The notes under the pieces are model-generated. The model did not search any database and was not told the origin of the DNA. It saw only the letters and a list, made by a program, of their open reading frames with translations. From Flavobacterium kayseriense (GTDB lineage: Bacteria; Bacteroidota; Bacteroidia; Flavobacteriales; Flavobacteriaceae), in assembly GCF_014305095.1 (NCBI RefSeq), contig NZ_JACRUI010000005.1:186001-250000 (forward strand): DNA of 64,000 bases, in the 5' to 3' direction. The translations under genes were made by a program, and so were the position numbers. Below, one piece after another: positions 10,930-54,153 of the stretch; position 1 is the first letter of the stretch, and each line of letters starts with the position of its first letter.

Positions 10930-11691
10930 ATGTTTGGAATTTGCAATCTGGCTATAATCCCACTTCGGTTTGAACCAAGTGATAAAAGCGAAATTGTTTC
11001 TCAAGTTTTATTTGGAGAGCATTTTGAAGTTTTAGAGCAAGCACAGCAATGGTCTCGTATTAAGTTACATTATGATTCCTATGAAGGTTGGGTTGACTCT
11101 AAACAATATCAAATACTCTCTGAAGCAAACTACAACCAATTATCTAGTGATGCTGTTATTTTAAGTGCAGATTTAATAGAATACATAACAGGAGATAACA
11201 ATATGTTGCTCCCTATTCCATTAGGATCTTCCTTGTCATTTCTTAATCACAACGAAATCAATCGTTATAATTATGATTTTGAAGGAAACAAAACGAATGG
11301 AGTAAAAGATAAAAAACACATTATAAATACCGCTTATTTGTACTTGAACGCACCTTATTTATGGGGCGGGAAAACACCTTTTGGAATTGATTGTTCAGGC
11401 TTTACTCAAATGGTATACAAGTTGAATGGTTACAAACTGCTACGAGATGCTTCTCAGCAAGCAATGCAGGGGGAGCCATTAAGCTTTATCGAAGAAAGCG
11501 AGCCTGGTGATCTAGCGTTTTTTGACAACGAGGAAGGAAATATTATTCATGTAGGTATCATTATGGAAAACAATTACATTATTCACGCGAGTGGTAAAGT
11601 TAGAATCGACCGTCTCGACCACCTTGGAATCTATAATCCCGAAATTAACAAGCACACACATAAACTTCGAGTTATTAAAAAAATAATTTAA
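10930..11691 (+). CDS. NlpC/P60 (C40) peptidase with N-terminal SH3-like domains
   Basis: The 253-residue protein has a bacterial SH3-like segment (about 1-62, with EGWVD), a second less clear SH3-like region (65-120), and an NlpC/P60 domain with Cys155 in GIDCSGF, His207 in IIHVGI and His219 in IIHA. Such enzymes are endopeptidases that cut gamma-D-Glu to diaminopimelate-type bonds in peptidoglycan stem peptides. No signal peptide is visible, which suggests a cytoplasmic recycling role (as for YkfC-type enzymes) acting on imported muropeptides. It follows the thiolase closely but shows no functional link to it. Confidence 0.9.
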   Translation: MFGICNLAIIPLRFEPSDKSEIVSQVLFGEHFEVLEQAQQWSRIKLHYDSYEGWVDSKQYQILSEANYNQLSSDAVILSADLIEYITGDNNMLLPIPLGSSLSFLNHNEINRYNYDFEGNKTNGVKDKKHIINTAYLYLNAPYLWGGKTPFGIDCSGFTQMVYKLNGYKLLRDASQQAMQGEPLSFIEESEPGDLAFFDNEEGNIIHVGIIMENNYIIHASGKVRIDRLDHLGIYNPEINKHTHKLRVIKKII

Positions 11692-14396: not shown

Positions 14397-14443
14397 TTGA
14401 AATACATTCGCTTTTAGAATTTTGTATCGTAATATTGCAATAT
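14397..14443 (+). promoter_or_regulatory. Arsenic operon promoter with ArsR operator palindrome
   Basis: TTG (14397-14399) and GAATTTTG (14417-14424, one mismatch from TAnnTTTG) are 17 bases apart. Just downstream lies the perfect 12-base palindrome ATATTGCAATAT (14432-14443), overlapping the expected transcript start and ending 11 bases before the arsR ATG. This is the placement expected for autorepression by a SmtB/ArsR-family repressor. Confidence 0.6.
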
Positions 14444-14454
14444 ACTTATATATT

Positions 14455-14787
14455 ATGGGAATTACTAAATCAGAAAATTTTACGCAGGAACAGAATGACT
14501 TGGCAACTTTGGCGAAAGCCATAGGACATCCAGCTAGAATTGCAATCATCCAATATCTAATCAAGGTAAATAGTTGCATCTGCGGCGACATAGTAAATGA
14601 ACTACCACTTTCGCAACCTACTGTTTCACAACACCTCAAGGAATTAAAAAACGCAGGATTGATCAAAGGAAACATAGAAGGAAATGCAATCTGCTATTGC
14701 TTGAATGAGGAAGGATTTAAGAAAATTGAAAATTTCTTCCTTGCCATTAATACGTTTTTCAAACCCATAAAAAATAATTGTTGTTAA
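14455..14787 (+). CDS. arsR: ArsR/SmtB-family transcriptional repressor
   Basis: I use the ATG at 14455; an earlier in-frame start at 14422 would place the operator palindrome inside the gene. The 110-residue protein has a winged helix with the recognition helix in [12 protein letters not shown]. The metalloid-binding cysteines are likely those in the SCICGD segment (two cysteines spaced like CxC/CVC sensors) plus the C-terminal CC pair. Family members release DNA when As(III) binds. It is the first gene of an operon with DUF6428, a reductase and an ACR3 pump. Confidence 0.92.
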
Positions 14788-14806
14788 CTATAAAAACATT
14801 AAATAA

Positions 14807-15271
14807 ATGAAACTATCTGAAATCAAAAAAGTACTTGCTACTTTAGATAATGTAGCATTCCAATTACCAAACGGGACTTTTGTTCCAGAGCATTTTCACG
14901 TAACCGAAGTAGGATTAATTACAAGAAATTTTATCGATTGTGGTGGCAAAGTACGTAAAGAGTCCGTCGTTAACTTTCAATTATGGAATGCTAATGACTT
15001 AGATCACCGCCTAAAGCCAAAAAAACTAATGAATATCATATCCCTATCGGAACGAACTCTTGGTATTCTTGATAATCAGATAGAGGTCGAATACCAATCA
15101 GAGACAATTGGAAAGTATGATCTTGACTTTAACGGGAACAACTTTGTATTAGTCAATAAACAAACTGCTTGTTTAGCTGAAGATCAATGTGGTATTCCTC
15201 AGAAAGAAAGTAAAACAGAAGCAAATTCTAATCAACAAAATACGTGTACTCCTGGCGGAGGTTGTTGCTAA
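14807..15271 (+). CDS. DUF6428 family protein of the arsenic operon
   Basis: The 154-residue protein begins with a domain of about 120 residues (HFHVTEVG and an FIDCGG motif) that I recognise as DUF6428, a family repeatedly found between arsR and the reductase in Bacteroidota arsenic operons. The last 25 residues form a low-complexity Asn/Gln linker ending in GGGCC, with further cysteines at ACLAEDQCG and TCTPGG. The cysteine-rich tail suggests binding or handing on of As(III), but the function is unproven. It starts 19 bases after arsR and ends 16 bases before the reductase gene. Confidence 0.85.
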   Translation: MKLSEIKKVLATLDNVAFQLPNGTFVPEHFHVTEVGLITRNFIDCGGKVRKESVVNFQLWNANDLDHRLKPKKLMNIISLSERTLGILDNQIEVEYQSETIGKYDLDFNGNNFVLVNKQTACLAEDQCGIPQKESKTEANSNQQNTCTPGGGCC

Positions 15272-15287
15272 CTAAATTTAAATTTTA

Positions 15288-15914
15288 ATGAACAGTGCAC
15301 CTACTCTATTTCATGCTTTAGAACAGCAAATAAAAAAGAATTCATTTGACACAATTTCGAGCGATAGAAAATTAGAGCTTGACTCTCTTATTAATTATAT
15401 ACAAGAGAAGACAAATGCTAAACAAAAAATTCGACTGAATTTTATTTGTACTCATAATTCACGCAGAAGTCATTTAGCGCAAATTTGGGCACAAACTGCT
15501 GCTGCTTATTACAATATTAGTAATGTGACATGCTATTCAGGAGGTACTGAAGCTACTGCTTTGTTCACAGCTGTTGCTACCACTTTACGTAACACTGGTT
15601 TTGAAGTTACCTCGTTATCCCAAGGAAATAATCCAGTTTATAGCATTAAATACAGCGAAAACGAGCATCCTGTTATCGGTTTTTCAAAAAAATACGATGA
15701 TCGTTTTAATCCAAATACTGAATTTGCTGCAATATTAACATGCTCAAGCGCAGATCAAGGGTGTCCCTTTATTGCTGGTGCTGAAAAGCGCATACCACTC
15801 CCTTTTGAAGATCCTAAACAATACGACAATACGCCGTTACAAACGGAAAAATACATGGAAAAAAGTATTGAAATAGCTGCAACTCTACTGTATGTGTTTT
15901 CTCAAATAAAATAA
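15288..15914 (+). CDS. arsC: LMW protein-tyrosine-phosphatase-type arsenate reductase
   Basis: The 208-residue protein carries the P-loop CX5RS (Cys54 to Arg60, CTHNSRRS) of the low-molecular-weight phosphatase fold used by thioredoxin-coupled arsenate reductases, with additional cysteines at LTCSSADQGCPF, the position of the redox relay, and a late PFEDP segment holding the catalytic Asp. It would convert arsenate to arsenite in the cytoplasm. At 208 residues it is longer than classical ArsC (about 130-140), mostly through an N-terminal helical extension of about 45 residues. The neighbours support the arsenic role strongly. Confidence 0.87.
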   Translation: MNSAPTLFHALEQQIKKNSFDTISSDRKLELDSLINYIQEKTNAKQKIRLNFICTHNSRRSHLAQIWAQTAAAYYNISNVTCYSGGTEATALFTAVATTLRNTGFEVTSLSQGNNPVYSIKYSENEHPVIGFSKKYDDRFNPNTEFAAILTCSSADQGCPFIAGAEKRIPLPFEDPKQYDNTPLQTEKYMEKSIEIAATLLYVFSQIK

Positions 15915-15928
15915 AATAAAATAAATAT

Positions 15929-17008
15929 ATGTCAGCCAATAAATGTACTCCTGCAATCTCTAGAAAAAAGTTAAGTTTTTTAGACCGGTACCTAACCTTA
16001 TGGATCTTCCTAGCTATGCTTCTAGGAGTAGCGATTGCTAACTTTATACCTTCAAGCGGAAACTTTATCAATTCGTTTTCTAACGGTACCACTAATATTC
16101 CACTCGCCATTGGATTAATTTTAATGATGTATCCACCCTTGGCGAAAGTAAAATATGAGAAAATGGGTCGAGTTTTTAAAGATATTAAAGTCTTATCTGC
16201 CTCCCTCCTACTAAATTGGATTATAGGACCTTTTGTAATGTTTTTTCTTGCCTTATATTTTTTAAATGATTACCCTGAGTATATGATTGGGGTTATTTTG
16301 ATTGGTTTAGCACGTTGCATTGCTATGGTAGTAGTATGGAATGACCTTGCAGATGGAAATAGAGAATACGCGGCAGGTTTAATTGCCCTAAATAGTATTT
16401 TTCAAGTTTTGCTCTACAGTGTGTATGCCTATTTTTTTATTACTATTTTACCTCCTTACTTCGGCTTTACCGGTTTTGAAGTAAACATAAGTATAAGGGA
16501 AATCGCAGCAAGTGTAGGTATTTATCTAGGTATTCCGTTTGCTTTAGGGATTATTAGTCGCTACGCATTAATTTATTTTAAGGGAGAACCATGGTTCACG
16601 ACTCAATTCATTCCAAAGGTTTCTCCAATTACATTAATGGCACTATTATTCACCATTATACTCATGTTTAGTCTTAAAGGCGAATTAATCGTTCAAATTC
16701 CTTTTGATGTGCTTCGTATAGCTGCACCTCTTGTCATATATTTTTTATTCATGTTTATATTAAGTTTTTTCGTTGGTAAATATTTTGGTGCCGATTATTC
16801 AAAGAGCACTGCAATTGCATTTACTGCAACAGGTAATAATTTCGAACTGGCGATCGCTGTAGCGATTGGTGTATTTGGTATCAATAGCGGTCAAGCTTTT
16901 GCTGGCGTTATAGGACCATTAGTAGAGGTTCCCGCTCTTATTGCACTTGTAAACGTTGCTTTTTGGTTTAGAAAAAAATATTTTTCACAAAACTATATTA
17001 GCAATTAG
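15929..17008 (+). CDS. acr3: ACR3-family arsenite efflux transporter
   Basis: The 359-residue membrane protein has about ten helices and the ACR3 signature [18 protein letters not shown], whose cysteine is essential in studied ACR3 pumps. A second family block is [17 protein letters not shown]. It extrudes arsenite (and possibly antimonite) across the inner membrane. It lies 14 bases after the reductase and is the last gene of the ars operon. The family is unrelated to ArsB despite the shared role. Confidence 0.94.
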
Positions 17009-30176: not shown

Positions 30177-31712
30177 TTAACCCAACCAGCCGTCACGATC
30201 TAAGCTTCGGTATTGGATAGCCTCGGCGATATGCGATGAAACCACTATAGGTGCTGCATCAAGGTCGGCAATCGTTCTGGCTACTTTTAAAATACGATCG
30301 TAAGCACGGGCTGATAAATTAAGTCGTTCCATAGCTGTTTTTAGTAATTGTTTAGACGTATCATCAAGAGCGCAGTATTCCCTAATTTGTTTCGTATTCA
30401 TTTGCGCATTGTAATGAATATTGTTCATCTCCTCGAAACGTGCCGACTGAATTTCACGAGCCGCAGTAACTCTTTTTCGAATATCGACGCTACTTTCGGC
30501 TTTTCGGTCATCAGATAACTTCTCGAAAGGTACTGGCGTCACTTCAATGTGAATATCAATTCGATCTAATAATGGGCCTGAAATCTTACTTAAATAACGC
30601 TGCATTTCATGTGGTGAGGATGTTTGTGGTGCGTCAGGATCATTAAAAAAACCACTTGGACTAGGGTTCATACTTGCCACCAGCATAAATGATGATGGAT
30701 AGGTTACAGTGAACTTAGCTCTTGAAATTGTTACTTCACGATCCTCTAGCGGTTGACGCATTACTTCCAAGACGTCCCGCTTAAATTCAGGCAATTCATC
30801 CAAAAACAAAACACCATTGTGCGCCATCGAAATTTCGCCAGGCTGCGGGTAACTACCTCCTCCCACTAATGCCACATTCGATATCGTATGATGCGGACTC
30901 CTAAACGGTCTTTGATTCATCAAACCTACTTCTTTTAACTTACCCGCCACACTATGGATTTTTGTCGTTTCTAATGCTTCGCGCAAAGTCATTGGTGGCA
31001 AAATACTTGGTAATCGCTTGGCTAACATTGTTTTTCCAGCTCCAGGAGGACCAATTAAAATAATATTGTGACCTCCGGCAGCCGCTATTTCCATGCATCG
31101 CTTAATAGACTCCTGCCCTTTTACATCGCTAAAATCAAATTCTGGAAAGTCTAAATCTTTATAAAACTCAGCTCTCGTATCGATAGTTGTTGGTTCCAGA
31201 TTTCCTTTTCCTTCTAAAAAATCAATGACTTCTTGAACATTTTCAACGCCATACACATCAAGTCCAGCAACAATTGCTGCTTCTTTTACATTTTGCTTTG
31301 GCAGAAAAAACCCTTTAAAACCCTCTTCCTTAGCTTTTATGGCAATAGGCAAAGCACCACGAATGGGCTGTAAGCTTCCGTCAAGAGAAAGCTCTCCCAT
31401 TATCACGTACTTTTCTAGGTCTACTGCAGTGATTTGCTGTGAAGCAACTAAAATACCAATTGTTAAAGTAAGATCATAAGCTGATCCTTCCTTTCGCAAA
31501 TCAGCTGGAGCCATGTTAATCGTGATCTTTTTACCTGGCATACCGTAGCCATTGTTTTTTAGTGCAGCAGCGATGCGATAACTACTTTCTTTAATGGCAT
31601 TATCAGGCAATCCAACTAAATGGTAACCAATACCTTTATCAATATTTACTTCTACGGTAATCGTTGTAGCTTCTACTCCAAAAACGGCACTTCCAAAAAC
31701 TTTAACAAGCAT
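30177..31712 (-). CDS. comM: YifB/ComM-family Mg chelatase-like AAA+ ATPase
   Basis: The 511-residue protein begins with the ChlI-like N-terminal domain (about 1-190, with GLPDNAIKE and KITINLAP-like KITINMAPADLRKEG) followed by the AAA+ core with Walker A GPPGAGKTML (near 215-228), a Walker B region FLDELPEF and the C-terminal helical lid. In transformable bacteria ComM is a hexameric helicase that promotes branch migration of incoming DNA during natural transformation. The family is broad and this gene stands alone, so competence is inferred from homology only. Confidence 0.93.
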   Translation of the reverse strand: MLVKVFGSAVFGVEATTITVEVNIDKGIGYHLVGLPDNAIKESSYRIAAALKNNGYGMPGKKITINMAPADLRKEGSAYDLTLTIGILVASQQITAVDLEKYVIMGELSLDGSLQPIRGALPIAIKAKEEGFKGFFLPKQNVKEAAIVAGLDVYGVENVQEVIDFLEGKGNLEPTTIDTRAEFYKDLDFPEFDFSDVKGQESIKRCMEIAAAGGHNIILIGPPGAGKTMLAKRLPSILPPMTLREALETTKIHSVAGKLKEVGLMNQRPFRSPHHTISNVALVGGGSYPQPGEISMAHNGVLFLDELPEFKRDVLEVMRQPLEDREVTISRAKFTVTYPSSFMLVASMNPSPSGFFNDPDAPQTSSPHEMQRYLSKISGPLLDRIDIHIEVTPVPFEKLSDDRKAESSVDIRKRVTAAREIQSARFEEMNNIHYNAQMNTKQIREYCALDDTSKQLLKTAMERLNLSARAYDRILKVARTIADLDAAPIVVSSHIAEAIQYRSLDRDGWLG

Positions 31713-32092: not shown

Positions 32093-33565
32093 ATGCACTG
32101 GATAGATTATCTAATCTTTGTTGTTTATATGTTTGCTATGCTTGGTGTAGGAATCTACTTTTTTAATAAAAATAAAACGGCTGAGGACTTTTATGTAAGC
32201 GGACGCAATATGAGCAGTTGGCACATCGGCCTATCAGTAGTCGCTACTGATGTTGGTGGTGGTTTTTCTATTGGTCTTGGAGGCCTTGGCTTTACCATGG
32301 GATTATCAGGCTCTTGGATGCTATTCACCGGACTTTTAGGAGCTTGGTTGAGTGCTGTTTTTCTTATTCCAAAAGTGAGTCATCTGGGACACAAGTATAA
32401 ATTTTTTACTTTTCCGCAAATTTTTGGGCACTTTTACAATTCCCGTGTGGCTTTATTGGCCGGAATTATTTCTGCCATTGGATATGTAGGCTTTACAAGC
32501 TCGCAAGTTTTGGCTGGAGCCAAATTAGCGTCAGCTACAATCGAAGGTTTAAATTTACAGACGGCTTTGATTGTAATGGGAATTATCGCTGTGGTCTATA
32601 CCGCAATAGGTGGCCTTAAAGCCGTTATTTACACAGACACAATTCAATGGTTGATATTAATTAGCGGCCTTGTATTTATTGGAATACCAATTGCCTATCA
32701 TGCTGTAGGGGGTTATGACGCTATTAAAGCAACATTAGACCCAAAATATCTATCGTTAACTAATGTACATTGGTATCAAATACTAAATTGGTCTGTAACG
32801 ATCATTCCTATTTGGTTTGTGGGAATGACATTGTACCAACGAATTTATGCTAGTAAAGGAGAAAAAGAGGCGAAGAAAGCTTGGCTCATTGCGGGTGCAT
32901 TTGAGTGGCCGATCATGGCATTTATGGGAGTAATTCTAGGAATGCTTGCTAAAGTTGCTGCTAGCCAAGGAATGTTTGCCGGTATTACTGATGCGAGTAC
33001 AATGGACAGTGAAATGGGCTTACCGGTCCTACTTGCAACTATACTACCTGTTGGGCTTTTGGGATTAATGCTATCCTCTTATTTTTCGGCTATCCTCTCA
33101 ACGGCAGACAGCTGCTTGATGGCTGCATCTGGTAATATTGTGACGGATATTATAGCTAAATTTTCTAAAAAAGAACTAACGCATAAGAAAGAGTTACGGT
33201 TGTCGCAAATTGTAACGCTAGCAGTTGGTTTGTTTGCGATTTTACTAGCTTCTCAAATGCAAAATGTTTTAGAATTGATGCTGTACTCCTACGCCTTTAT
33301 GGTATCGGGTTTATTTGTTCCGGTGATTGGTGCTCTTTTCTGGAAAAAAAGTCATCCCATCGCTGCTTTCTGGAGTATGCTCTTGGGCGGAAGTACCACA
33401 ATTATTTTAATTCTTACTAAAAATAAATTACCTTTAGGAATAAAATTACCCGAGCACATAGATGCTAACATTTATGGTTTGACGGTCTCTTTAATTTTAT
33501 TTCTAACACTATCATATTATCATTTTAACAAAAACGAAAAACAAAATGGAATTCAGAATAATTAA
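32093..33565 (+). CDS. Sodium:solute symporter (SSS family)
   Basis: The 490-residue protein has about 13 membrane helices and the SSS signature around residues 55-80 (GGGFSIGLGGLG) and the second block near 330-345 (YFSAILSTADSCLMAAS). It imports a small solute with sodium ions. Relatives carry amino acids, sugars, nucleosides or urea; the downstream genes (GNAT, M20 hydrolase, two racemases) make an amino acid or N-acyl amino acid the best guess. The last 20 bases overlap the start of the GNAT gene, which indicates translational coupling. Confidence 0.92.
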   Translation: MHWIDYLIFVVYMFAMLGVGIYFFNKNKTAEDFYVSGRNMSSWHIGLSVVATDVGGGFSIGLGGLGFTMGLSGSWMLFTGLLGAWLSAVFLIPKVSHLGHKYKFFTFPQIFGHFYNSRVALLAGIISAIGYVGFTSSQVLAGAKLASATIEGLNLQTALIVMGIIAVVYTAIGGLKAVIYTDTIQWLILISGLVFIGIPIAYHAVGGYDAIKATLDPKYLSLTNVHWYQILNWSVTIIPIWFVGMTLYQRIYASKGEKEAKKAWLIAGAFEWPIMAFMGVILGMLAKVAASQGMFAGITDASTMDSEMGLPVLLATILPVGLLGLMLSSYFSAILSTADSCLMAASGNIVTDIIAKFSKKELTHKKELRLSQIVTLAVGLFAILLASQMQNVLELMLYSYAFMVSGLFVPVIGALFWKKSHPIAAFWSMLLGGSTTIILILTKNKLPLGIKLPEHIDANIYGLTVSLILFLTLSYYHFNKNEKQNGIQNN

Positions 33566-33980
33566 TCAAACAACAGGTGCAAATCCTATATATACAAGTG
33601 GAGTTATTGCACAATTTTTATTTACTCATCTCGAAGAATATGGAGATAAAATAGCTGATATCTTAAAATGTATCGATTATGTGATGCACCCGGACAAAGG
33701 TGGAAATATAGTTATAGGATTAGATGAAAATGAAATCGTTGGGATAGTAATCTTAAACAATACAGGGATGAAAGATTTTATTCCCGAGAACATTTTAGTG
33801 TACATCGCAGTAGATAACAGCCATCGTGGTAAAGGGTATGGCAAGCAATTAATGCAAAAAGCCATTTCGATTGCCGAAGGAAATATAGCCTTGCATGTAG
33901 AACCAGATAATCCTGCCAAAAAGCTATACGAAAAACTAGGGTTTACTAACAAATACCTAGAGATGCGTCTTATCAAATAA
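33546..33980 (+). CDS. GNAT-family N-acetyltransferase
   Basis: The 144-residue protein has the acetyl-CoA-binding motif A (HRGKGYGKQLM, about 95-105) after a beta strand with ILVYIAVD, and the C-terminal motif B region with NPAKKLYEKLGF. Such enzymes acetylate amino groups of small molecules or proteins. Its ATG lies inside the end of the symporter gene (20-base overlap) in another frame, and its stop is 6 bases before the M20 gene. With the neighbouring deacylase and racemases, an amino acid acceptor is likely but unproven. Confidence 0.9.
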   Translation: MEFRIINQTTGANPIYTSGVIAQFLFTHLEEYGDKIADILKCIDYVMHPDKGGNIVIGLDENEIVGIVILNNTGMKDFIPENILVYIAVDNSHRGKGYGKQLMQKAISIAEGNIALHVEPDNPAKKLYEKLGFTNKYLEMRLIK

Positions 33981-33986
33981 TCCAAA

Positions 33987-35138
33987 ATGGAAAATTTAAA
34001 CCAAAGCTTAGCCTCACTCACGCTATTGCGAAAGGAATTACATAAATATCCAGAAGTTTCAGGAAAAGAAATCAATACAGCCAAAAGGATTATTTCATTT
34101 CTTGAAAATTATTCTCCTGATGAACTGATCACGAACATCGGGACAACAGGAGTTTTAGCTATTTACCATGGGAAAGAAGCAGGTAAGACCATTTTATTTC
34201 GAGCAGAGCTTGATGCTTTGCCGATAGATGAAATAAACACATTTGACCATCGTTCTGTCAATAAAGGAGTCTCTCACAAGTGCGGACACGACGGACATAT
34301 GGCTATTTTATGCGGTTTGGCTATGGAACTGCACACCAACAGACCCGAAACAGGAGTCGTAATCTTACTTTTTCAACCTGCGGAGGAAGACGGAACTGGT
34401 GCTGAAAAAATATTGAATGATCCTAAATTTATGTATCGACCAGACTTCGCCTTTGCACTGCACAATATTCCTGGTCACCAGCAAAATCAAATTGTGAGCA
34501 AAGTAAACACTTTTAGTTGTGCTGTAAATAGCTTAATTATAAAGCTTAACGGCCATACGTCGCATGCTGCAGAGCCGCATATGGGAATCAATCCCGCATT
34601 GGCTTTAGCTAAAATTACGACAAGATTTAACGAATTAATTCAACCTGATCTTGGCAAAGAAAAGTACTGCTTGATTACCCCAATTTATTCGAAGATGGGT
34701 AAAAAAGCCTACGGAGTATCTGCTGGTGCTGCGCAAATTCATTTTACGGTTCGAAGCGACAGCAATATGCAAATGAAGGTTATCGAAGAAAAATTAGAAA
34801 AAGAAGTTAAAATAATAGCGGAGGAATTCCATTTAAAACATGAAACATCATGGACTCAAAAATTTTACGCAAACGAAAATAATACTGGGGCCGTCGATTA
34901 TATCAAAAAAGCATCTAAAATTAATAATTTTAACTTTTTAGAAAAACAAACTCCATTTACTTGGGGAGAAGATTTCGGCCTTTTTACACATCAATTCTTA
35001 GGTGCTATGTTTGGCGTAGGCTCAGGAACAGACTCCCCTGCCTTACACAATCCAGATTATGATTTTCCTGACGAAATTATTCCTACTGGTATAGCCATGT
35101 TTCATCAAATTAGTAAACAAATACTAAATGCACACTAA
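33987..35138 (+). CDS. M20D-family amidohydrolase (N-acyl amino acid deacylase type)
   Basis: The 383-residue protein shows the M20D metal-binding signature with HKCGHDGHMA (about 90-99), the catalytic EE pair in PAEEDGTG, the next ligand in HNIPGH and a late His in SPALHNPDYDF. Members hydrolyse N-acyl amino acids such as acetyl-, hippuryl- or indole-acetyl conjugates in the cytoplasm. A central dimerisation domain lies at about 185-290. The gene overlaps the alanine racemase start by 11 bases, so it is translated together with it. Confidence 0.92.
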   Translation: MENLNQSLASLTLLRKELHKYPEVSGKEINTAKRIISFLENYSPDELITNIGTTGVLAIYHGKEAGKTILFRAELDALPIDEINTFDHRSVNKGVSHKCGHDGHMAILCGLAMELHTNRPETGVVILLFQPAEEDGTGAEKILNDPKFMYRPDFAFALHNIPGHQQNQIVSKVNTFSCAVNSLIIKLNGHTSHAAEPHMGINPALALAKITTRFNELIQPDLGKEKYCLITPIYSKMGKKAYGVSAGAAQIHFTVRSDSNMQMKVIEEKLEKEVKIIAEEFHLKHETSWTQKFYANENNTGAVDYIKKASKINNFNFLEKQTPFTWGEDFGLFTHQFLGAMFGVGSGTDSPALHNPDYDFPDEIIPTGIAMFHQISKQILNAH

Positions 35139-36279
35139 CTCAATAATAGAACTAAATAAAAACGCATACCTTAACAATATCCAATTTTTAAGAAAGATTT
35201 TTGGTAAAAAAGTCATTCTATCCTCCGTGGTCAAAGGAAATGCTTATGGACATGGACTGCACGAATTTGCCACTATGGCAAATGATTGTGGGGTGAATCA
35301 TTTTTCTGTTTTTGACGTCGAAGAAGCCAAATTAATTAGAGCAGCATTATCATCTAAAGTCACTATTATGATCATGGGTTTCGTACCTGACCAAGATATG
35401 GAATGGGTAATTGCTAACGTTGTAGAATTTTATGTTTTTGACAAAAGTAGGCTTTCCACAGCTGTAAAAGTAGCAAAGAAACTCAAGACTAGAGCTATAG
35501 TCCATATCGAAATAGAAACTGGAATGAACCGCACTGGATTTAATAAACAAGAACTATCCTATGTTATTACTACTTTAAAAAAAGAAAATCAGCATTTAAT
35601 TTTTAAAGGACTTTGTACGCACTATGCAGGTGCCGAAAGTATTACTAATTATTACCGAGTTGAAAAGCAAATAAAAAAATTTAAGGAAATAGATGACTAT
35701 ATTTGTAACAATGGTATCCAACCTGAAATTAAACATACCGCTTGTTCTGCAGCATCAATGATGTACCCAGAAACGAGAATGGATTTAGTTCGCATCGGAA
35801 TAATGCAGTATGGTCTATGGTCAAGTCCCGAGATTTTTGTCAATTTTTTAAATTCGACCAAAAGTAAAATTGATCCTTTGCAGCGCATCATTGCTTGGAA
35901 AAGTACAATCATGTCGACTAAAAAAGTAAATAGCGGCGAATTCATTGGTTACGGAACAAGCTTTCTAGCAGAGAGGAAAATGAAAATTGCAGTAGTTCCT
36001 ATCGGATATGCTCATGGCTATAGCCGTTCGTTGAGCAATCAAGGACGTGTATTAATTCAAGGACACAGATGTACCGTAATTGGATCTGTAAATATGAACA
36101 TGATGACTATTGATGTTACAGATATCGATACCGTAAAAAAAGAAGATGAAGTGGTATTAATTGGATCTCAAAATGAAATGACTGTTTCAGTGGCTTCTTT
36201 CAGCGATTTAAGCAATCAACTTAATTATGAATTACTAACTAGAATAGCAAAAACGATTCCACGCAAAATCATTCAATAA
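35128..36279 (+). CDS. alr: Alanine racemase-family PLP enzyme
   Basis: The 383-residue protein has the PLP-binding Lys36 in SSVVKGNAYGHG, the substrate block TGMNRTGF and the catalytic-base region with Tyr in GEFIGYGTSF and PIGYAHGYSR. Alr interconverts L- and D-alanine for peptidoglycan. The block that reads GRxxMD in most alanine racemases reads GSVNMNMM here, so substrate range may differ. Many Bacteroidota carry Alr fused to MurF; this stand-alone copy in a catabolic-looking operon is more likely accessory. It overlaps the next racemase by one base. Confidence 0.88.
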   Translation: MHTNSIIELNKNAYLNNIQFLRKIFGKKVILSSVVKGNAYGHGLHEFATMANDCGVNHFSVFDVEEAKLIRAALSSKVTIMIMGFVPDQDMEWVIANVVEFYVFDKSRLSTAVKVAKKLKTRAIVHIEIETGMNRTGFNKQELSYVITTLKKENQHLIFKGLCTHYAGAESITNYYRVEKQIKKFKEIDDYICNNGIQPEIKHTACSAASMMYPETRMDLVRIGIMQYGLWSSPEIFVNFLNSTKSKIDPLQRIIAWKSTIMSTKKVNSGEFIGYGTSFLAERKMKIAVVPIGYAHGYSRSLSNQGRVLIQGHRCTVIGSVNMNMMTIDVTDIDTVKKEDEVVLIGSQNEMTVSVASFSDLSNQLNYELLTRIAKTIPRKIIQ

Positions 36280-37352
36280 TGGCTTTTATAAAATTATATA
36301 GAAAAAAGTTAGAGGAAAACTATCTGTTCCTAAACGAAATTTTTAAATCTCGAAATATAGAATGGGGTGTTGTTACTAAGCTTTTGTGCGGTAACGAACT
36401 CTACCTAAAAGAGATAATGGCGTTAGGGGTTCATGAAATGCATGATTCCCGAATTAGCAATTTAAAAAAAATTAAAAAATTAAACCCCGATATACAAACG
36501 GTGTATATCAAACCCCCTGCAAAACGAAGTATCGAAAGTATTGTACGTTATGCCGACGTCAGTTTTAATACTGAAATTTATACAATCCAGGAACTCTCTA
36601 AAGAAGCGTTGAAGCAAAACAAAATTCATAAAATCATTATTATGATTGAAATGGGTGATTTACGTGAAGGCGTCATGGGCGAAGAATTGATTGAGTTTTA
36701 TGGAAAAATTTTGAGCTTACCTAATATCGAAATCAGAGGTATAGGAACCAACCTTAATTGCCTGAGCGGTATTATGCCTACACAAGATAAACTCATTCAA
36801 TTGAGTCTGTATAAACAATTAATTGAAGCCAAGTTTAATATCGAAATTCCATGGGTTTCTGGTGGGACTTCCGTTGCAATTCCGCTAATTTTAAAAAATG
36901 CACGCCCTATGGCCGTTAATCATTTTAGAATCGGTGAAGCTTTATTTTTTGGTAAAGATCTTTTTACAGGCGAGACCATCAAAGGAATGCACAATGACGT
37001 TTTTAAGCTCTTTACAGAGATTATTGAAATTACAGAGAAACCAGATACACCAATAGGGGAATTAGGTGAAAGCGGCGTTGGAAACACATTCGTTATAGAC
37101 GAAGAAGCTGATTTAAGCACGACCTCATTGCGGGCTATTTTAGATATTGGTCTTTTAGATATGCAACCTCAGTATTTAGAACCCGAGGATAGCGGAATAA
37201 CAATCGTTGATGCAAGTTCCGATATGTTGGTAATTGATATCTCTAACGCAGAGAAAAAATACAAAATAGGCGATTTAGTCTCCTTCAAAATCAGGTATAT
37301 GGGAGCCCTTTACCTCTTAAATTCAGATTATATCGAAAAAACGATAGGATAA
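36279..37352 (+). CDS. Alanine/ornithine racemase-family PLP enzyme
   Basis: The 357-residue protein is a PLP fold-III enzyme with the probable Schiff-base Lys34 in WGVVTKLLCG, then the blocks EMHDSRISNL, VYIKPP, IEMGDLREGV and a late GESGVGNTFV. The sequence fits the alanine/ornithine racemase family (COG3457-type), which includes ornithine racemase of amino-acid-fermenting clostridia. It shares a one-base ATG overlap with the alr stop and closes the five-gene operon. Substrate is unknown; ornithine, lysine or another amino acid is possible. Confidence 0.87.
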   Translation: MAFIKLYRKKLEENYLFLNEIFKSRNIEWGVVTKLLCGNELYLKEIMALGVHEMHDSRISNLKKIKKLNPDIQTVYIKPPAKRSIESIVRYADVSFNTEIYTIQELSKEALKQNKIHKIIIMIEMGDLREGVMGEELIEFYGKILSLPNIEIRGIGTNLNCLSGIMPTQDKLIQLSLYKQLIEAKFNIEIPWVSGGTSVAIPLILKNARPMAVNHFRIGEALFFGKDLFTGETIKGMHNDVFKLFTEIIEITEKPDTPIGELGESGVGNTFVIDEEADLSTTSLRAILDIGLLDMQPQYLEPEDSGITIVDASSDMLVIDISNAEKKYKIGDLVSFKIRYMGALYLLNSDYIEKTIG

Positions 37353-37380
37353 CCCATGATTATCAACAAATAGATATCTT

Positions 37381-37417
37381 AAAGGAAAAAACCACAAAGG
37401 TATTTTCCTTTTTTTAA
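37381..37417 (+). terminator. Terminator after the racemase operon
   Basis: AAAGGAAAA pairs with TTTTCCTTT and is followed by a run of T, about 30 bases after the last racemase stop. Confidence 0.8.
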
Positions 37418-37568
37418 AGATAATGCAATTTATAATATTAATATTTAAATTAATATTGCATAAAATTTTAAATAATTAAATTAACTACCATGTAAGTGTT
37501 AATTTGTATTCTTTATCATATATAAATAAAGAGTTTTAGTATTTTTATAAAAAATTAACTAAAACCAT

Positions 37569-40568
37569 ATGAAAAAAACTATTTACCTCCTCTTTTTATT
37601 AGTTTTTATACCAAAAATTAATGCGCAGGAATACTTTCCAAATAATGAAAGTATACAAAACAAAAACAACAATTATACTGCCTTTACGAATGCGAAAATA
37701 TTTGTTACTCCAACACAAATAATCGAAAAAGGAACTTTACTAATCCAGAATGGAAAAGTAATTAGCGCAGGAAAAGCAGTAACACTTCCAAAAAACACAA
37801 TTGTAGTAAATCTAGAAGGAAAATCAATCTATCCTTCCTTTATAGATATGTATACTACTTTTGGAATCGAAAAAACCAAAAGAGCCGAAGGTGGTGGCCG
37901 CCAAAATCCTTTGTATGATACTAAAAAAGAAGGGTACTATTGGAACGAGCACATCAAACCTGAAACAGAAGCATTCGCTAATTTCAAATACGATAATGCT
38001 AAAGCTGAAGAGCTATTAAAAGCAGGTTTTGGTGTTGTAGGTACGCACGTTGCTGATGGTATTGCACAAGGGACAGGATCTTTGATTGCTTTAAATAATG
38101 ACGATAATAGCAAGCGTCTATTATCTAACAAAATCACGAATCACTTTAGTTTTTCTAAAAGTGTTGGTTCTATCCAATCGTATCCTAGTTCACTAATGGG
38201 AATGATGGCATTATTACGTCAAATGTATTTGGATCTGGACTGGTACAAAAATGGAAATTCTAAAACAACTGATTTGTCGTTAGAAGCGATGAAGGACAAC
38301 CAAAAATTAGTTCAAATTTTTGCTTCAGAGGATAAATTAAATAGTCTAAGAGCGGCAAAAATCGCTAAGGAATTTGGATTAAACTACATCCTTAAAGGTG
38401 GAGGTAATGAATTTGAGAGAATAGATGAAATTAAGAAAACTAATGCTTCATTTATCATCCCTATTAACTTTCCAGAAGCTTTTGATGTAACAAATCCTTA
38501 CTTAGCAAGTCAATTAGACTTTAGCGATTTAAGATTATGGAATCAAGCGCCAACTAACCTTAAAGTATTGTCTGACAATGGAGTTGTTTTTGCACTAACA
38601 ACTGACAAACTTAAAAAAATCGATGATTTTAGAACTAACTTATTAAAAGCGATTCAATACGGTTTTGACAAAACTAAAGCATTAGAAGCATTAACCACTG
38701 TACCAGCTTCTTTACTTGGAAAAAGTAATGAGATTGGAACTTTAAAAGATGGTAGCCTTGCCAACTTCTTGATTACCTCTGGTGAAGTATTTGACAAGAA
38801 AACAACAATCTATGAAAACTGGGTTGAAGGAAACAAATATGTTATCAAAGACATGACTGCTAAAGATATTCGTGGTAGTTATGACCTAACAGTGGATAAC
38901 ACAACCTACAAATTACTTATCAAAGGAGAAATTGCTTCTCCTGAAGCGGAAATAAAGAATATTGACTCTACTAAAGTAAATTCAAAACTTACCATCGCTA
39001 ATAATTGGATTTCATTAATCATGAAAACCAAAGACTCAGTTAAAACTAATTTTAATAGACTAACAGGTTATATTGAAAACACACCTAATCTGAGTGGAAA
39101 AGTAATTGCTTTTGATGGAAGAGAATTAACTTGGTCTGCGTTAAAAACTGCTCCTTTCGAAAAAGAAAAGGACAAGAAAAACGAAACTAAATTAAATACA
39201 GTTGTTCCCGTTAGTTTCCCAAATATTGCTTTTGGAAACACTGCCAAATTAAATCAAGAAACCTTGCTTTTTAAAAACGCAACGGTTTGGACAAATGAAA
39301 AAGAAGGAATTCTTACTGAAACAGATGTATTGGTTAAGAATGGTAAAATTGCCGCAATTGGAAACAATTTAAGCGATGCTTCAGCAACTGTAATTGATGC
39401 GAAAGGAAAACACCTTACTAGTGGAATTATAGACGAACATTCACACATCGCAATCTCTAGTGGAGTTAATGAAGGTGGACACAACTCGAGTGCAGAGGTA
39501 ACAATACAAGATGTTGTAAATTCTGACGACGTAAATATTTACAGAGAGCTAGCTGGTGGTGTAACAACATCCCAATTGCTTCATGGATCTGCAAACCCAA
39601 TTGGCGGTAGATCAGCAATTGTAAAATGGAAATGGGGAGCGGCTCCTGACGAAATGTTGTACAAGAATCAGCCAGGCTTTATAAAATTTGCTTTGGGAGA
39701 AAACGTAAAGCAATCGAATTGGGGAACTAATAACCCTACACGTTTTCCTCAAACTAGAATGGGAGTTGAACAAGTTTTCACTGATTACTTTCAACGCGCT
39801 AGAGAATATGAAGCGACTTGGAAATTATACAACGCTTCATCTAAGAAAAATAAAGGAAAAGCTCCGAGAGTAGATGTGGAAATGCAAACTTTAGTAGAGA
39901 TTTTAAATAAAGAACGTTTTATTTCTTGTCACTCTTATGTGGCATCAGAGATCTTAATGTTAATGAATGTTGCTGATAAATTTAATTTTAAAGTAAATAC
40001 ATTTACCCACATCTTAGAAGGTTACAAAGTAGCTGATAAAATGAAAGAGCATGGCGTTGGAGCATCTACATTTGCTGACTGGTGGGCTTATAAATTTGAA
40101 GTAAACGACGCTATTCCTTACAATGGTCCAATCATGCACAATGCAGGCTTATTAGTAGCTTACAACTCTGATGATGCTGAAATGTCAAGAAGATTAAACC
40201 AAGAAGCAGCAAAAGCAGTGAAATATGGTGATGTTTCGGAAGAGGATGCATGGAAATTCGTCACTCTAAATCCAGCAAAATTATTACATATCGATGATAA
40301 AGTGGGTAGTATAAAAGTTGGAAAAGATGCTGACATCGTTTTATGGAGTGCAAACCCACTATCGATCTACGCTCAAGCAGAGAAAACAATTATTGAAGGT
40401 ACCGTTTACTATGACGCTAAAAAAGACGAGGCTAAAAGAGTAGCCGTAAATCAAGAGAGAAATCTAATTATAGGTCAAATGCTTGAAGAAAAAAACAAAG
40501 GTATGAACACACAGGAACCTAAGAAAAAAACTAAGGTTGAATACCACTGTGATACAATGGAACAATAA
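37569..40568 (+). CDS. Secreted double amidohydrolase, N-terminal half degenerate
   Basis: A signal peptide (KKTIYLLFLLVFIPKINAQ) leads into two amidohydrolase folds (about 35-430 and 590-985) in one 999-residue chain. The second half keeps the metal site: His624 and His626 in DEHSHIA, His in SCHSY and THILEG, and Asp in YNSDDAE. The first half lacks the HxH motif (SFIDMYTTFGI at the equivalent place). Substrates of such periplasmic amidohydrolases could be peptides or cyclic amides; none is shown. It begins a three-gene operon with a second degenerate amidohydrolase 33 bases downstream. Confidence 0.88.
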   Translation: MKKTIYLLFLLVFIPKINAQEYFPNNESIQNKNNNYTAFTNAKIFVTPTQIIEKGTLLIQNGKVISAGKAVTLPKNTIVVNLEGKSIYPSFIDMYTTFGIEKTKRAEGGGRQNPLYDTKKEGYYWNEHIKPETEAFANFKYDNAKAEELLKAGFGVVGTHVADGIAQGTGSLIALNNDDNSKRLLSNKITNHFSFSKSVGSIQSYPSSLMGMMALLRQMYLDLDWYKNGNSKTTDLSLEAMKDNQKLVQIFASEDKLNSLRAAKIAKEFGLNYILKGGGNEFERIDEIKKTNASFIIPINFPEAFDVTNPYLASQLDFSDLRLWNQAPTNLKVLSDNGVVFALTTDKLKKIDDFRTNLLKAIQYGFDKTKALEALTTVPASLLGKSNEIGTLKDGSLANFLITSGEVFDKKTTIYENWVEGNKYVIKDMTAKDIRGSYDLTVDNTTYKLLIKGEIASPEAEIKNIDSTKVNSKLTIANNWISLIMKTKDSVKTNFNRLTGYIENTPNLSGKVIAFDGRELTWSALKTAPFEKEKDKKNETKLNTVVPVSFPNIAFGNTAKLNQETLLFKNATVWTNEKEGILTETDVLVKNGKIAAIGNNLSDASATVIDAKGKHLTSGIIDEHSHIAISSGVNEGGHNSSAEVTIQDVVNSDDVNIYRELAGGVTTSQLLHGSANPIGGRSAIVKWKWGAAPDEMLYKNQPGFIKFALGENVKQSNWGTNNPTRFPQTRMGVEQVFTDYFQRAREYEATWKLYNASSKKNKGKAPRVDVEMQTLVEILNKERFISCHSYVASEILMLMNVADKFNFKVNTFTHILEGYKVADKMKEHGVGASTFADWWAYKFEVNDAIPYNGPIMHNAGLLVAYNSDDAEMSRRLNQEAAKAVKYGDVSEEDAWKFVTLNPAKLLHIDDKVGSIKVGKDADIVLWSANPLSIYAQAEKTIIEGTVYYDAKKDEAKRVAVNQERNLIIGQMLEEKNKGMNTQEPKKKTKVEYHCDTMEQ

Positions 40569-40601
40569 AAAGCGGACTCAATAATTGAAAAAACATATAA
40601 A

Positions 40602-41900
40602 ATGATACTTAAAAAAAGATATTTACTTCTGCTATCACTGAGTTTGTCCTTAGCAGCACAACACGCACCAGCAGATAAGCAAACAAAATCAGTTTTGATA
40701 ATGAATGCTACTGCTCACCTAGGAAACGGTCAAGTAATTCAAAATAGTGCAATTGGATTTAAAGACGGAAAACTTACCCTAGTAGCAGATGCTACAAAGA
40801 TCAGATTAGCACAAGGAACGTACGACACAACTATTGACGCAACTGGGAAACACGTGTACCCTGGCTTCATTGCTCCTAATTCAACATTGGGATTGGTAGA
40901 AATTGATGCTATAAAATCATCAGATGACGAAAGCGAAATAGGAGATTTTAATCCAAATGTTAGAGGTATTGTTGCTTACAATGCCGAGTCGAAAGTTATA
41001 GAAACGGTACGCCCTAACGGGATTCTAATAGCTCAAATTACACCGAGAGGTGGAATAATCTCAGGTGCCTCATCGGTTGTTCATTTAGACTCTTGGAACT
41101 GGCAAGACGCTATCATGAAAGAGAATGATGGTATTCATATGAACTTCCCTTCTTCTTTTAATAGAGGAGGACGTTGGGCAGAGCCAGGAGCTTCTAATTT
41201 GAATAAAAATTATGCAAAGCAAATTGATGAAACTAGAGCTTTCCTAACAAATGCAAAGTCATATATCGCCGATCCAGGTAAAGACCGAAATCTTATATTT
41301 GAATCTACTAAGAGTTTATTTGACGGAACTCAAACACTTTTTATACATGCTACTGCAGAATTACAGATAGTAGATGCTATAAACTTAGCTGTAGAAAGCG
41401 GAATCAAAAAAACAGTAATTGTTGGTGGATTTGAAGCGTATAAAGTAGCTGATATGTTAAAAAAACACAATGTCGGAGTTTTGCTACAGCGCGTCCATGA
41501 AATGCCTGAAAACGATGATGACGATGTTAATTTACCATATAAAATGGCTAAAATGTTAGTCGACAAAGGAATACTTGTAGGTCTTGAAAACAGTGGTTCG
41601 ATGGAAAGAATGAATACTAGAAATCTTCCTTTCCTTGCAGGTACTTGTGCAGCTTACGGACTTGACAGAGAGCAAGCATTACAATTAATCACATCAAATA
41701 CAGCAAAATTATTGAATATCGATGCCATGTGCGGAACACTGGAAGAAGGGAAAGATGCTACTTTATTTGTTTCTGAAGGAGATGCTCTCGACATGAGAAC
41801 GAATAAGTTAACACAAGCTTTTATTCAAGGTAAACTGCTCAACCTAGATAACCATCAATCAAAGTTGAATACAATCTATAAAAAGAAATACAATCAATAA
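40602..41900 (+). CDS. Secreted amidohydrolase-fold protein lacking the metal motif
   Basis: The 432-residue protein has an N-terminal signal sequence (LLLLSLSLSLAAQ) and an amidohydrolase-like fold with the small beta domain at both ends (VLIMNATAHLGNG and the late GTLEEGKDATLFV). Where catalytic members have HxH it reads FIAPNSTLGL, and the late Asp position reads ENSGSM, so it is probably not a metal hydrolase. I infer it is a structural or regulatory partner of the double amidohydrolase upstream, from which it is separated by 33 bases. It ends 2 bases before the PH-domain gene. Confidence 0.83.
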   Translation: MILKKRYLLLLSLSLSLAAQHAPADKQTKSVLIMNATAHLGNGQVIQNSAIGFKDGKLTLVADATKIRLAQGTYDTTIDATGKHVYPGFIAPNSTLGLVEIDAIKSSDDESEIGDFNPNVRGIVAYNAESKVIETVRPNGILIAQITPRGGIISGASSVVHLDSWNWQDAIMKENDGIHMNFPSSFNRGGRWAEPGASNLNKNYAKQIDETRAFLTNAKSYIADPGKDRNLIFESTKSLFDGTQTLFIHATAELQIVDAINLAVESGIKKTVIVGGFEAYKVADMLKKHNVGVLLQRVHEMPENDDDDVNLPYKMAKMLVDKGILVGLENSGSMERMNTRNLPFLAGTCAAYGLDREQALQLITSNTAKLLNIDAMCGTLEEGKDATLFVSEGDALDMRTNKLTQAFIQGKLLNLDNHQSKLNTIYKKKYNQ

Positions 41901-53064: not shown

Positions 53065-54153
53065 CTATTTGCGTTCATTTGGTTCTGGAACATCATCGCT
53101 GCTACCACCATTTTCAACAAGTGTATCTTCTGCCCTTTGGTGATCTTCACGATCGGCTTCAAGACCTTCTTGATTCGGTTCTTGTGCGGGGGTAAAAGCT
53201 AATGAGGTATACAACGGAAAGTGATCTGAACTAATCGATGGTAACCTTTGAATAGAACATAGTGTAAAATGACTACTGTGAAATAAATGATCCATGGGCC
53301 ATCGCGCAATGGGTACTTGAACATGAAACGTATTTAACATGCCGCGTCCTATCCTAGGATCTAGCAAGCCACTTATTTTACGAAAAAGGCGCGTTGTCGA
53401 TGACCAAGCTACATCATTAAGATCACCAGCTACAATAATAGGCTGATCACTATCGGCAATACTTTTAGCTACAGCAATTAGCTCTGCATCACGTTCAGAC
53501 GACTCTGTATTTTCAGTAGGGCTTGGTGGAGCCGGATGCAAGAAATGTGCTCTAACTCTATCTCCTGAGCGAAGTTCTATTGCTAGATGTATTGAGGGAA
53601 CATCATCTTCTATCAAAAAGGAAATCTCTTGGTCATGCAAAGGCAACTTTGAATACACATGCATCCCGTACAGGTTATCCAATGGACATTTGACTGTATA
53701 CGGCATCATTACTTCTAAAACTGCAAGCTGCTCTTCCCACCATAAATCAGACTCTAAAGTGACTAAAATATCAGGTTGGTATTTGTTGACTAAATCCAAT
53801 AATGAACCAACATTCCTATTGGGCGTAAGGACGTTCGAAGTTATAATACTAAGTCTTCTATCAGGATCTACCTCCTTGCATGATTTAACCTCTCTTGACC
53901 AAAATGGAGTATACGGCAACACCCACCATAACTGATAAAGCAAGCAAACTGAAACCGCGATTACTAAAACTATTGAAAACCAATTTTGAAAATCCAAATA
54001 GAAAAAACTAGCCACTAAAATAGCCATACAAAAAACAGTGATTTGAAGGCGAGGAAAATCCATGCTTCTAACAATCCAATGTTTATTACGTGACAATGGT
54101 ATAAGCGTAAATAAAACCGTTAAAACGGCACAAATTGTAATTATAGTAATCAT
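53065..54153 (-). CDS. Membrane-anchored endonuclease/exonuclease/phosphatase-family protein
   Basis: The 362-residue protein has three N-terminal hydrophobic segments (about 1-22, 32-52, 55-78) and then an EEP domain (about 100-320) with the metal Glu in TLESD, the GDLND block and SSDHFPLY. It is therefore a membrane-bound metal-dependent phosphodiesterase fold, different from the secreted one at 8.06 kb. The last 40 residues are strongly acidic and rich in Glu, Asp and Pro with no similarity I can place. Substrate unknown. The next gene on this strand is a kinase-like protein upstream. Confidence 0.85.
   Translation of the reverse strand: MITIITICAVLTVLFTLIPLSRNKHWIVRSMDFPRLQITVFCMAILVASFFYLDFQNWFSIVLVIAVSVCLLYQLWWVLPYTPFWSREVKSCKEVDPDRRLSIITSNVLTPNRNVGSLLDLVNKYQPDILVTLESDLWWEEQLAVLEVMMPYTVKCPLDNLYGMHVYSKLPLHDQEISFLIEDDVPSIHLAIELRSGDRVRAHFLHPAPPSPTENTESSERDAELIAVAKSIADSDQPIIVAGDLNDVAWSSTTRLFRKISGLLDPRIGRGMLNTFHVQVPIARWPMDHLFHSSHFTLCSIQRLPSISSDHFPLYTSLAFTPAQEPNQEGLEADREDHQRAEDTLVENGGSSDDVPEPNERK

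Follow-up and report, generated by a model that had tools for sequence, protein, structure and literature searches.

The N-succinylamino acid racemase pathway (reportedly described by Sakai et al. in 2006 and cited in PMC8762209, with uses of its enzymes in PMC7431475) is the closest named system to the operon studied here. In it, a D-amino-acid acylase related to the GNAT acetyltransferases reportedly acts together with a racemase and a deacylase in an irreversible conversion of D- to L-amino acids. In a second described system, the breakdown of S-(2-succino)cysteine in Bacillus subtilis (scm, formerly yxe), an amino acid is protected by an acetyltransferase and later freed again by a deacetylase (PMC12757645). 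Here we report on a five-gene operon in a 64,000-nucleotide stretch of Flavobacterium kayseriense DNA (contig NZ_JACRUI010000005.1, positions 186,001 to 250,000; hereafter the window), which encodes a sodium:solute symporter (SSF), an N-acetyltransferase (GNAT), a metallo-hydrolase (M20D) and two pyridoxal phosphate (PLP) racemases of the Alr type (ALR) and the Orr type (ORR). The genes form a real and recurrent partnership, for which no description was found in the open-access literature searched. The first-pass annotation of this DNA knew of no named pathway with exactly this gene set, but the N-succinylamino acid racemase pathway follows the same logic. Production and use of D-amino acids are widespread among bacteria, but few pathways dedicated to them are, to our knowledge, known in Bacteroidota.

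In an even sample of 395 genomes from the window's phylum, taken to be Bacteroidota from its named relatives, ORR (E ≤ 1e-30) was found in 63 and GNAT (E ≤ 1e-20) in 62, with 61 genomes common to both: ORR occurred without GNAT in G156 and G345, both of which hold more typical Orr enzymes than the ORR of the window, and GNAT without ORR in G076. The ALR subfamily (E ≤ 1e-75) was present in 43 of the 395 genomes, every one of them ORR-positive (43/43); in 17 of these 43 its distance from ORR exceeded 8 kb or the two genes were on different contigs (contig ends may explain some of these cases). M20D (E ≤ 1e-50) and SSF (E ≤ 1e-110) were searched in 80 genomes, i.e. the 63 ORR-positive ones and 17 hand-chosen ORR-negative controls (14 of the window's genus, two of its family, and G076 for its GNAT), all genome searches scoring the best few candidates per genome: M20D was present in 45/63 versus 2/17, and an SSF orthologue in 49/63 versus 0/17. 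The hypergeometric probability of the ORR-GNAT overlap (3e-68) ignores kinship, genome counts not being phylogenetically independent; the safer statement is the match within genus g1 (24 genomes), where GNAT accompanied ORR in 10/10 genomes and was present in 0/14 genomes without ORR. This co-occurrence, together with the varied gene order, supports one functional set, as the first-pass annotation had proposed, and the genes very probably belong together. The competing view, that they are independent amino-acid genes which happen to be co-transcribed and share no pathway, ALR being a spare alanine racemase, can point to families that are all common and promiscuous and to overlaps that are ordinary in compact genomes; already disfavoured, it is highly improbable in the face of the near-perfect co-occurrence of GNAT, ALR and SSF with ORR even where unlinked, and of their regrouping in new orders.

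Gene order was compared in two sets of loci. The first, from named genomes, comprised the best 80 of 286 relatives returned by the ORR search (mostly Flavobacterium, in addition Fulvivirga, Acidiluteibacter and unclassified metagenome-assembled genomes) and is biased to near relatives of the window's ORR. GNAT and ORR were encoded on one strand in 75 of these loci and the exact order SSF-GNAT-M20-ALR-ORR was present in 44; the remaining orders were GNAT-ORR (23 loci, some with short flanks), GNAT-M20-ALR-ORR (7), M20-ALR-ORR (4, the contig ending inside or just before M20), SSF-GNAT-ORR (1) and ORR alone (1, on a short contig). In Fulvivirga (ORR identity about 65%) four of five loci had the full order of the window and the fifth was cut by a contig end. 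At the seven GNAT-M20-ALR-ORR loci no SSF remnant was detected by tblastn, the rest of these genomes not having been searched, and in the five inspected the SSF slot was filled by unrelated-looking genes. A cluster unique to this strain, the outcome which the first-pass annotation had said would tell against its proposal, is rejected on the 44 loci of identical order and the 63 ORR-positive genomes.

The second set consisted of 53 loci with wide flanks from the 63 genomes of the phylum sample (nine Flavobacterium and G305 were left out). Here, the orders were SSF-GNAT-ORR-M20-ALR (15), SSF-GNAT-ORR (10), GNAT-ORR (10), GNAT-ORR-SSF-M20-ALR (4), GNAT-ORR-SSF (4), SSF-GNAT-ORR-M20 (3), ORR alone (2; G156 and G345) and one each of GNAT-SSF-ORR, GNAT-ORR-SSF-M20, ORR-M20, ORR-M20-ALR and M20-ALR-SSF-GNAT-ORR. 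Three of the four GNAT-ORR-SSF loci (L126, L128, L135) carry a distant SSF (25% identity) directly after ORR, which suggests that transport matters. In genomes counted for both genes, the starts were at most 8 kb apart for GNAT-ORR in 59/61, for GNAT-SSF in 44/48 and for ALR-M20D in 35/42 cases; contig ends can split true neighbours. Four genomes, G335, G224, G326 and G367, carry M20D-ALR as a pair on one contig and GNAT-ORR on a different one (in G335, SSF, M20D-ALR and GNAT-ORR occupy three contigs), and in G273 the contig of M23-M20D-ALR is not that of SSF-GNAT-ORR. Despite the varied order the partners thus stay together in two modules, SSF-GNAT-ORR and (M23-)M20D-ALR, and the near-obligate GNAT-ORR pair is the core, so that the hydrolase is not central. 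The rest of the genes are dispensable, since GNAT-ORR stands alone in 23 of the 80 loci and M20D/ALR or SSF are missing in some genomes. On the ORR tree (133 rows, 129 with state) the linked-M20D/ALR state changed at least 17 times, so that the sets were regrouped repeatedly, gain and loss not being separable; the tree is from FastTree only, with a long-branch warning and four rows omitted, and whether a row is scored “no linked M20D/ALR” varies with the length of its flanks.

We read the operon as one amino-acid pathway of two modules, for the synthesis and the recovery of an N-acetyl amino acid, and assign a probability of at most roughly 0.4 to this reading; the broader statement, that the genes serve a stereo-conversion of amino acids with acetylation, is probably correct. 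In the first module, SSF would take up the amino acid with sodium, ORR would interconvert its L and D forms, and GNAT would acetylate an amine of one form to give an N-acetyl amino acid, most likely of the D form; the acetylation, being practically irreversible, would draw the racemase equilibrium to one side. Because PLP racemases require the alpha-amine to be free, racemisation would have to precede alpha-acetylation, or else the acetyl group would be placed on the side chain. The second module would reverse the first: M20D, in other lineages with M23, would remove the acyl group, and ALR would convert the amino acid back to its other enantiomer for catabolism. Enzyme activities as the families suggest them, the substrate, the amine acetylated and the direction of the pathway are what we infer here. 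The uptake and racemisation cycle of the first-pass annotation survives in part: uptake, racemisation and acyl transfer or removal are natural from the families, but alanine racemase as the function of ALR, which it named, is doubtful.

The ORR protein had its best NCBIfam match, over nearly the full length, in the ornithine racemase model Orr (NF040742; 329.1 bits, cut-off 480). Its structure model (predicted local distance difference test, pLDDT, 90.1) most closely resembled alanine, broad-specificity and lysine racemases, which were tied (Z 27.3, 27.2 and 26.9; 316–330 residues, about 3 Å), with D-threonine aldolase at Z 26.2; the fold search hence places ORR among the fold type III amino-acid racemases, as a general racemase fold only, and a sequence search of the PDB gave no match at E 0.01. 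A bona fide Orr is found in G156, a genome that lacks GNAT: it scores 505.7 bits and is flanked by what looks, by eye, like a full set of ornithine fermentation genes (the whole region being L138:1115-9022); the Orr-like protein of G345 reaches 404.6 bits. In contrast, no ornithine fermentation genes were recognised by eye near ORR among the open reading frames of the window. A plain ornithine racemase of fermentation was therefore rejected for ORR on its score and its different gene setting. RacX of Halocola was likewise discarded as a counterpart, being modelled on an Asp/Glu racemase in the portion consulted of PMC12838360, where ornithine racemase is merely listed.

ALR scored 284.5 bits against the alanine racemase model TIGR00492 (cut-off 168), and its Schiff-base Lys, Tyr and Arg positions were invariant in 74 alignment rows. 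It thus shares family and catalytic Lys and Tyr with Alr and the MurF-Alr fusion, but differs from both in two motifs: Cys-Met-Asp, an active-site feature of alanine racemase, has become Asn-Met-Asn (Asn in 73/74, Met in 74/74, Asn in 74/74 rows), and the Asp of GYADG is replaced by His in 72/74 rows. The Met-Asp of the first motif is also seen in the PDB rows 4y2w and 5irp. The F. kayseriense genome has a separate MurF-Alr (1161.9 bits to NF008897) which keeps the Cys and Asp of Cys-Met-Asp and the Asp of GYADG. Because of this housekeeping enzyme and the loss of Cys-Met-Asp in the ALR subfamily, the earlier assignment to the Alr family holds while alanine racemase as a function is doubtful, and a housekeeping alanine racemase was rejected for ALR; the altered motif probably reflects a changed substrate. 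At the position equivalent to Tyr354, ALR keeps Tyr in 74/74 rows; the broad-specificity racemase Bsr presumably carries a non-Tyr residue at this single position of its fingerprint. The ALR subfamily cautions that the label “alanine racemase” may be wrong for some annotated proteins.

Membership of SSF in its family is clear (PF00474, 180.9 bits, cut-off 22.8), and its nearest equivalogs, PutP (TIGR02121; 152.1 bits, cut-off 515.5) and PanF (117.3 bits), stay far below their cut-offs. M20D exceeded the cut-off of the amidohydrolase model TIGR01891 (218.5 bits, cut-off 153.75), and its positions C99, H101, E134, H159 and H354, presumably the metal ligands, were invariant in 76 alignment rows; the best PDB relative is YxeP (1ysj), which we take to be ScmP of the scm system. 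The best equivalog of M20D is DoeB2, an N-acetyl-diaminobutanoate deacetylase model (178.3 bits, far below its cut-off of 550); by name or by paper (the part consulted of PMC12757645), both relatives are N-acetyl-amino-acid deacetylases. GNAT (PF00583, 57.6 bits) gave a structure model of pLDDT 94.3 whose fold neighbours are RimI (Z 16.5), NatC (16.4), Ard1 and GCN5 (range about 15.9–16.5), with aminoglycoside 2'-N-acetyltransferase at Z 15.1 and polyamine acetylases among the top Foldseek rows; the fold searches did not settle between a protein and a small-molecule acetylase. That GNAT is a regulator which acetylates the ORR protein rather than a metabolite would fit the near-obligate pair, its standing alone in many loci and the leading place of protein N-terminal and lysine acetylases among the neighbours; we hold it to be quite improbable, as the small-molecule acetylases follow close behind and GNAT also occurs alongside a transporter and an N-acyl-amino-acid-type deacylase.

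The set of five stands as one set, but in other lineages an M23 metallohydrolase of about 200 amino acids belongs to it as a sixth partner. It lies between ORR and M20D or nearby in 29 loci (on the opposite strand in four Fulvivirga-type loci, L076, L079, L080 and L082); starts were at most 8 kb apart in 26/32 cases for ORR-M23 and in 22/30 for M20D-M23, which is not a fair rate, the 33 M23 places entered being mostly the closest or linked ones. Among the 29 linked proteins, HxGxD is found in 29, [YF]GH[LI] in 28 and the strict H-x-H-[FW] in 19, and by a crude hydrophobic-run test none has an evident signal peptide, L145 being borderline with a run of 8. Among NCBIfam models, the M23 of L161 matches NF004799 best, a 1015-amino-acid hypothetical protein (its M23 part) and not a wall enzyme model. 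These findings bear on the idea of a periplasm- or wall-directed supply, in which ORR and ALR would furnish peptidoglycan editing with non-canonical D-amino acids, their pool being regulated by GNAT and M20D: two racemases beside a complete housekeeping MurF-Alr, and a partner with the fold typical of wall endopeptidases, speak for it, but the apparent lack of a signal peptide and the nearest model of the L161 protein do not, nor was any wall enzyme besides M23 recognised by eye among the first 40 or the first 25 neighbour-gene clusters; we regard it as unlikely. M23 homologues also occur outside the set: in 13/14 ORR-negative genomes of the window's genus, in the window's own genome (44% identical, C7:165543-166016, L172:6032-6748, without an obvious signal peptide and in an unrelated-looking setting) and as a long homologue in L175:3827-6895, by Pfam a 1023-amino-acid fusion of APH, M23 and a class III aminotransferase, which adjoins genes that by eye resemble proline racemase/hydroxyproline epimerase and D-amino-acid dehydrogenase.

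As to the substrate, a basic amino acid has about an even chance by the sequence evidence, with ornithine or lysine most likely; they are favoured by several hints, not proved. Besides the best matches of ORR (Orr) and M20D (DoeB2, below cut-off), the flanks contribute: the divergent neighbour of SSF in L157 is an ornithine aminotransferase (TIGR01885, 675.4 bits, cut-off 378.4), and a lysine 6-aminotransferase (TIGR03251, 699.2 bits, cut-off 520.8) follows next. The fetched flanks held an ornithine aminotransferase homologue in 12 loci, every one of them from family f24, and eight of the 12 held a lysine one as well; G384 (f43) has a lysine aminotransferase about 7 kb from SSF. Among 20 genomes scanned (12 ORR-positive, eight ORR-negative) it exceeded the cut-off in five, all ORR-positive; it was absent in the scanned members of the window's family, ORR-positive or not, and hence follows kinship at least as well as it follows ORR. 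More speculatively, and with a fairly low probability, Bacteroidota might make N-acetyl-D-ornithine or N-acetyl-D-lysine as a so far undescribed metabolite which the same or neighbouring bacteria reclaim; GNAT-ORR would then be the dedicated synthase pair, and SSF, M20D, ALR and M23 an uptake and recovery kit that was regrouped repeatedly.

The arginine context of the genome offers another use of these enzymes. Its two OTCace proteins are an aspartate carbamoyltransferase and an N-acetylornithine carbamoyltransferase (303.2 bits, cut-off 288) that adjoins argB; neither exceeds the ornithine carbamoyltransferase cut-offs, the latter protein staying far below them, so that acetylation of ornithine would be metabolically useful. 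In a salvage of D-amino acids into arginine, SSF would import D- or DL-ornithine, ORR would convert it to L-ornithine, GNAT would acetylate it, given that only N-acylated ornithine can be carbamoylated, and M20D would deacetylate the product, with ALR handling a second D-amino acid freed from peptides. The carbamoyltransferase beside argB indeed gives a reason to acetylate free ornithine, but such a background is expected in Bacteroidota generally and leaves the tracking of ORR by GNAT unexplained; moreover, the roles of ALR and M23 are not accounted for, and an ornithine aminotransferase (641.5 bits in the window's genome) is another exit for ornithine. We therefore consider this salvage rather unlikely.

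Several observations count against the pathway of synthesis and recovery that we prefer. At the thresholds used, neither M20D nor ALR is present in 17 of the 63 ORR genomes and SSF is missing in 14, M20D occurs in two of the 17 ORR-negative controls, and the core pair is found without the other genes in 23 of the best 80 loci; the genome counts are linked by kinship, and contig ends may separate real neighbours. The ORR score lies below the Orr cut-off, and by the fold searches GNAT is compatible with protein, polyamine and small-amine acetylases alike. Finally, the flank aminotransferases are confined to f24, and there to 12 of 20 ORR genomes (19 looked at, G305 not among them; some contigs short), and no lysine aminotransferase exceeded the cut-off in the window's genome.

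The operon itself (Table 1) consists of five plus-strand open reading frames at 32093-37352 of the window; the gene list confirmed exactly the overlaps of 20, 11 and 1 bases and the gap of 6 described in the first-pass annotation, as Pfam and NCBIfam scans did the families. Its claim of an end at a terminator is supported by a stable hairpin with a T-run: the RNA of 37370-37425 folds at −14.8 kcal/mol (shuffle mean −5.67, z −4.0, 0/200 shuffles as stable), although this hairpin is not among the sites of a simple terminator scan of the window (7 sites, 7.1 expected). The Bacteroidota promoter pattern TTTG-N17-24-TANNTTTG gave 7 exact matches (7.47 expected), none of them upstream of the operon, and among 30 sigma-70-type sites (37.2 in shuffles) none stands out for it.

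Table 1. Operon genes and downstream hairpin in the window
Feature	Position	Strand	Length and basis
SSF: sodium:solute symporter (SSS family), putative amino-acid importer	32093..33565	+	490 aa; PF00474
GNAT: N-acetyltransferase	33546..33980	+	144 aa; PF00583
M20D: metallo-hydrolase, putative N-acyl-amino-acid deacylase	33987..35138	+	383 aa; Peptidase_M20/TIGR01891
ALR: Alr-type PLP racemase, distinct subfamily	35128..36279	+	383 aa; Ala_racemase_N+C/TIGR00492
ORR: Orr-type PLP racemase, sister subfamily of ornithine racemase	36279..37352	+	357 aa; Ala_racemase_N, NF040742
Intrinsic-terminator-like hairpin with T-run after ORR	37375..37422	+	RNA folding vs shuffles

Upstream lies a divergent Mg-chelatase-type gene (30177-31712); downstream, after a gap of 216 bases, two large amidohydrolase-type genes follow (37569-41900; the second named by sequence homology only), which are found at the same position in several Flavobacterium loci but have moved or are lacking in others, and are not part of the operon unit. 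Far from the operon, the window holds other D-amino-acid or wall-peptide genes, by eye a VanX-type D-Ala-D-Ala dipeptidase-like gene (2488-3138, minus strand) and an NlpC/P60-like gene (10930-11691, plus strand). Other features of the window are an apparent arsenic resistance cluster at 14422-17008 (by eye a regulator resembling ArsR, a small conserved protein, a phosphatase-like protein and a transporter resembling Acr3) and, at 53065-54153, an endonuclease/exonuclease/phosphatase-like membrane protein whose sequence looks unlike that of its Flavobacterium neighbours, possibly as a result of transfer.

The interest of the system lies in an almost obligate partnership of enzymes that are easily assayed, which makes the pathway testable now: an acetyltransferase and a racemase that are almost never apart point to a two-enzyme pathway, whose product could be findable by one liquid chromatography-mass spectrometry experiment. 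With the scm system, as far as the portion consulted of PMC12757645 describes it, the operon shares the pairing of acetylation and deacetylation, and YxeP is the best solved relative of M20D; the intermediate step there is, however, a flavin monooxygenase and not a racemase, and the operon contains no oxygenase. The N-succinylamino acid racemase pathway comes closer, GNAT and M20D being both present as in that pathway, with a D-acting GNAT and an L-specific deacylase as putative counterparts. Its racemase, a member of the enolase superfamily, takes the N-acyl amino acid as substrate; no such enzyme is found in the operon, whose two racemases are both Ala_racemase_N proteins, with fold type III for ORR (the genome outside the operon not having been searched). 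Since its racemases are PLP enzymes which require the free alpha-amine, the operon is not a member of the N-succinylamino acid racemase pathway, from which it further differs by a transporter and a second racemase.

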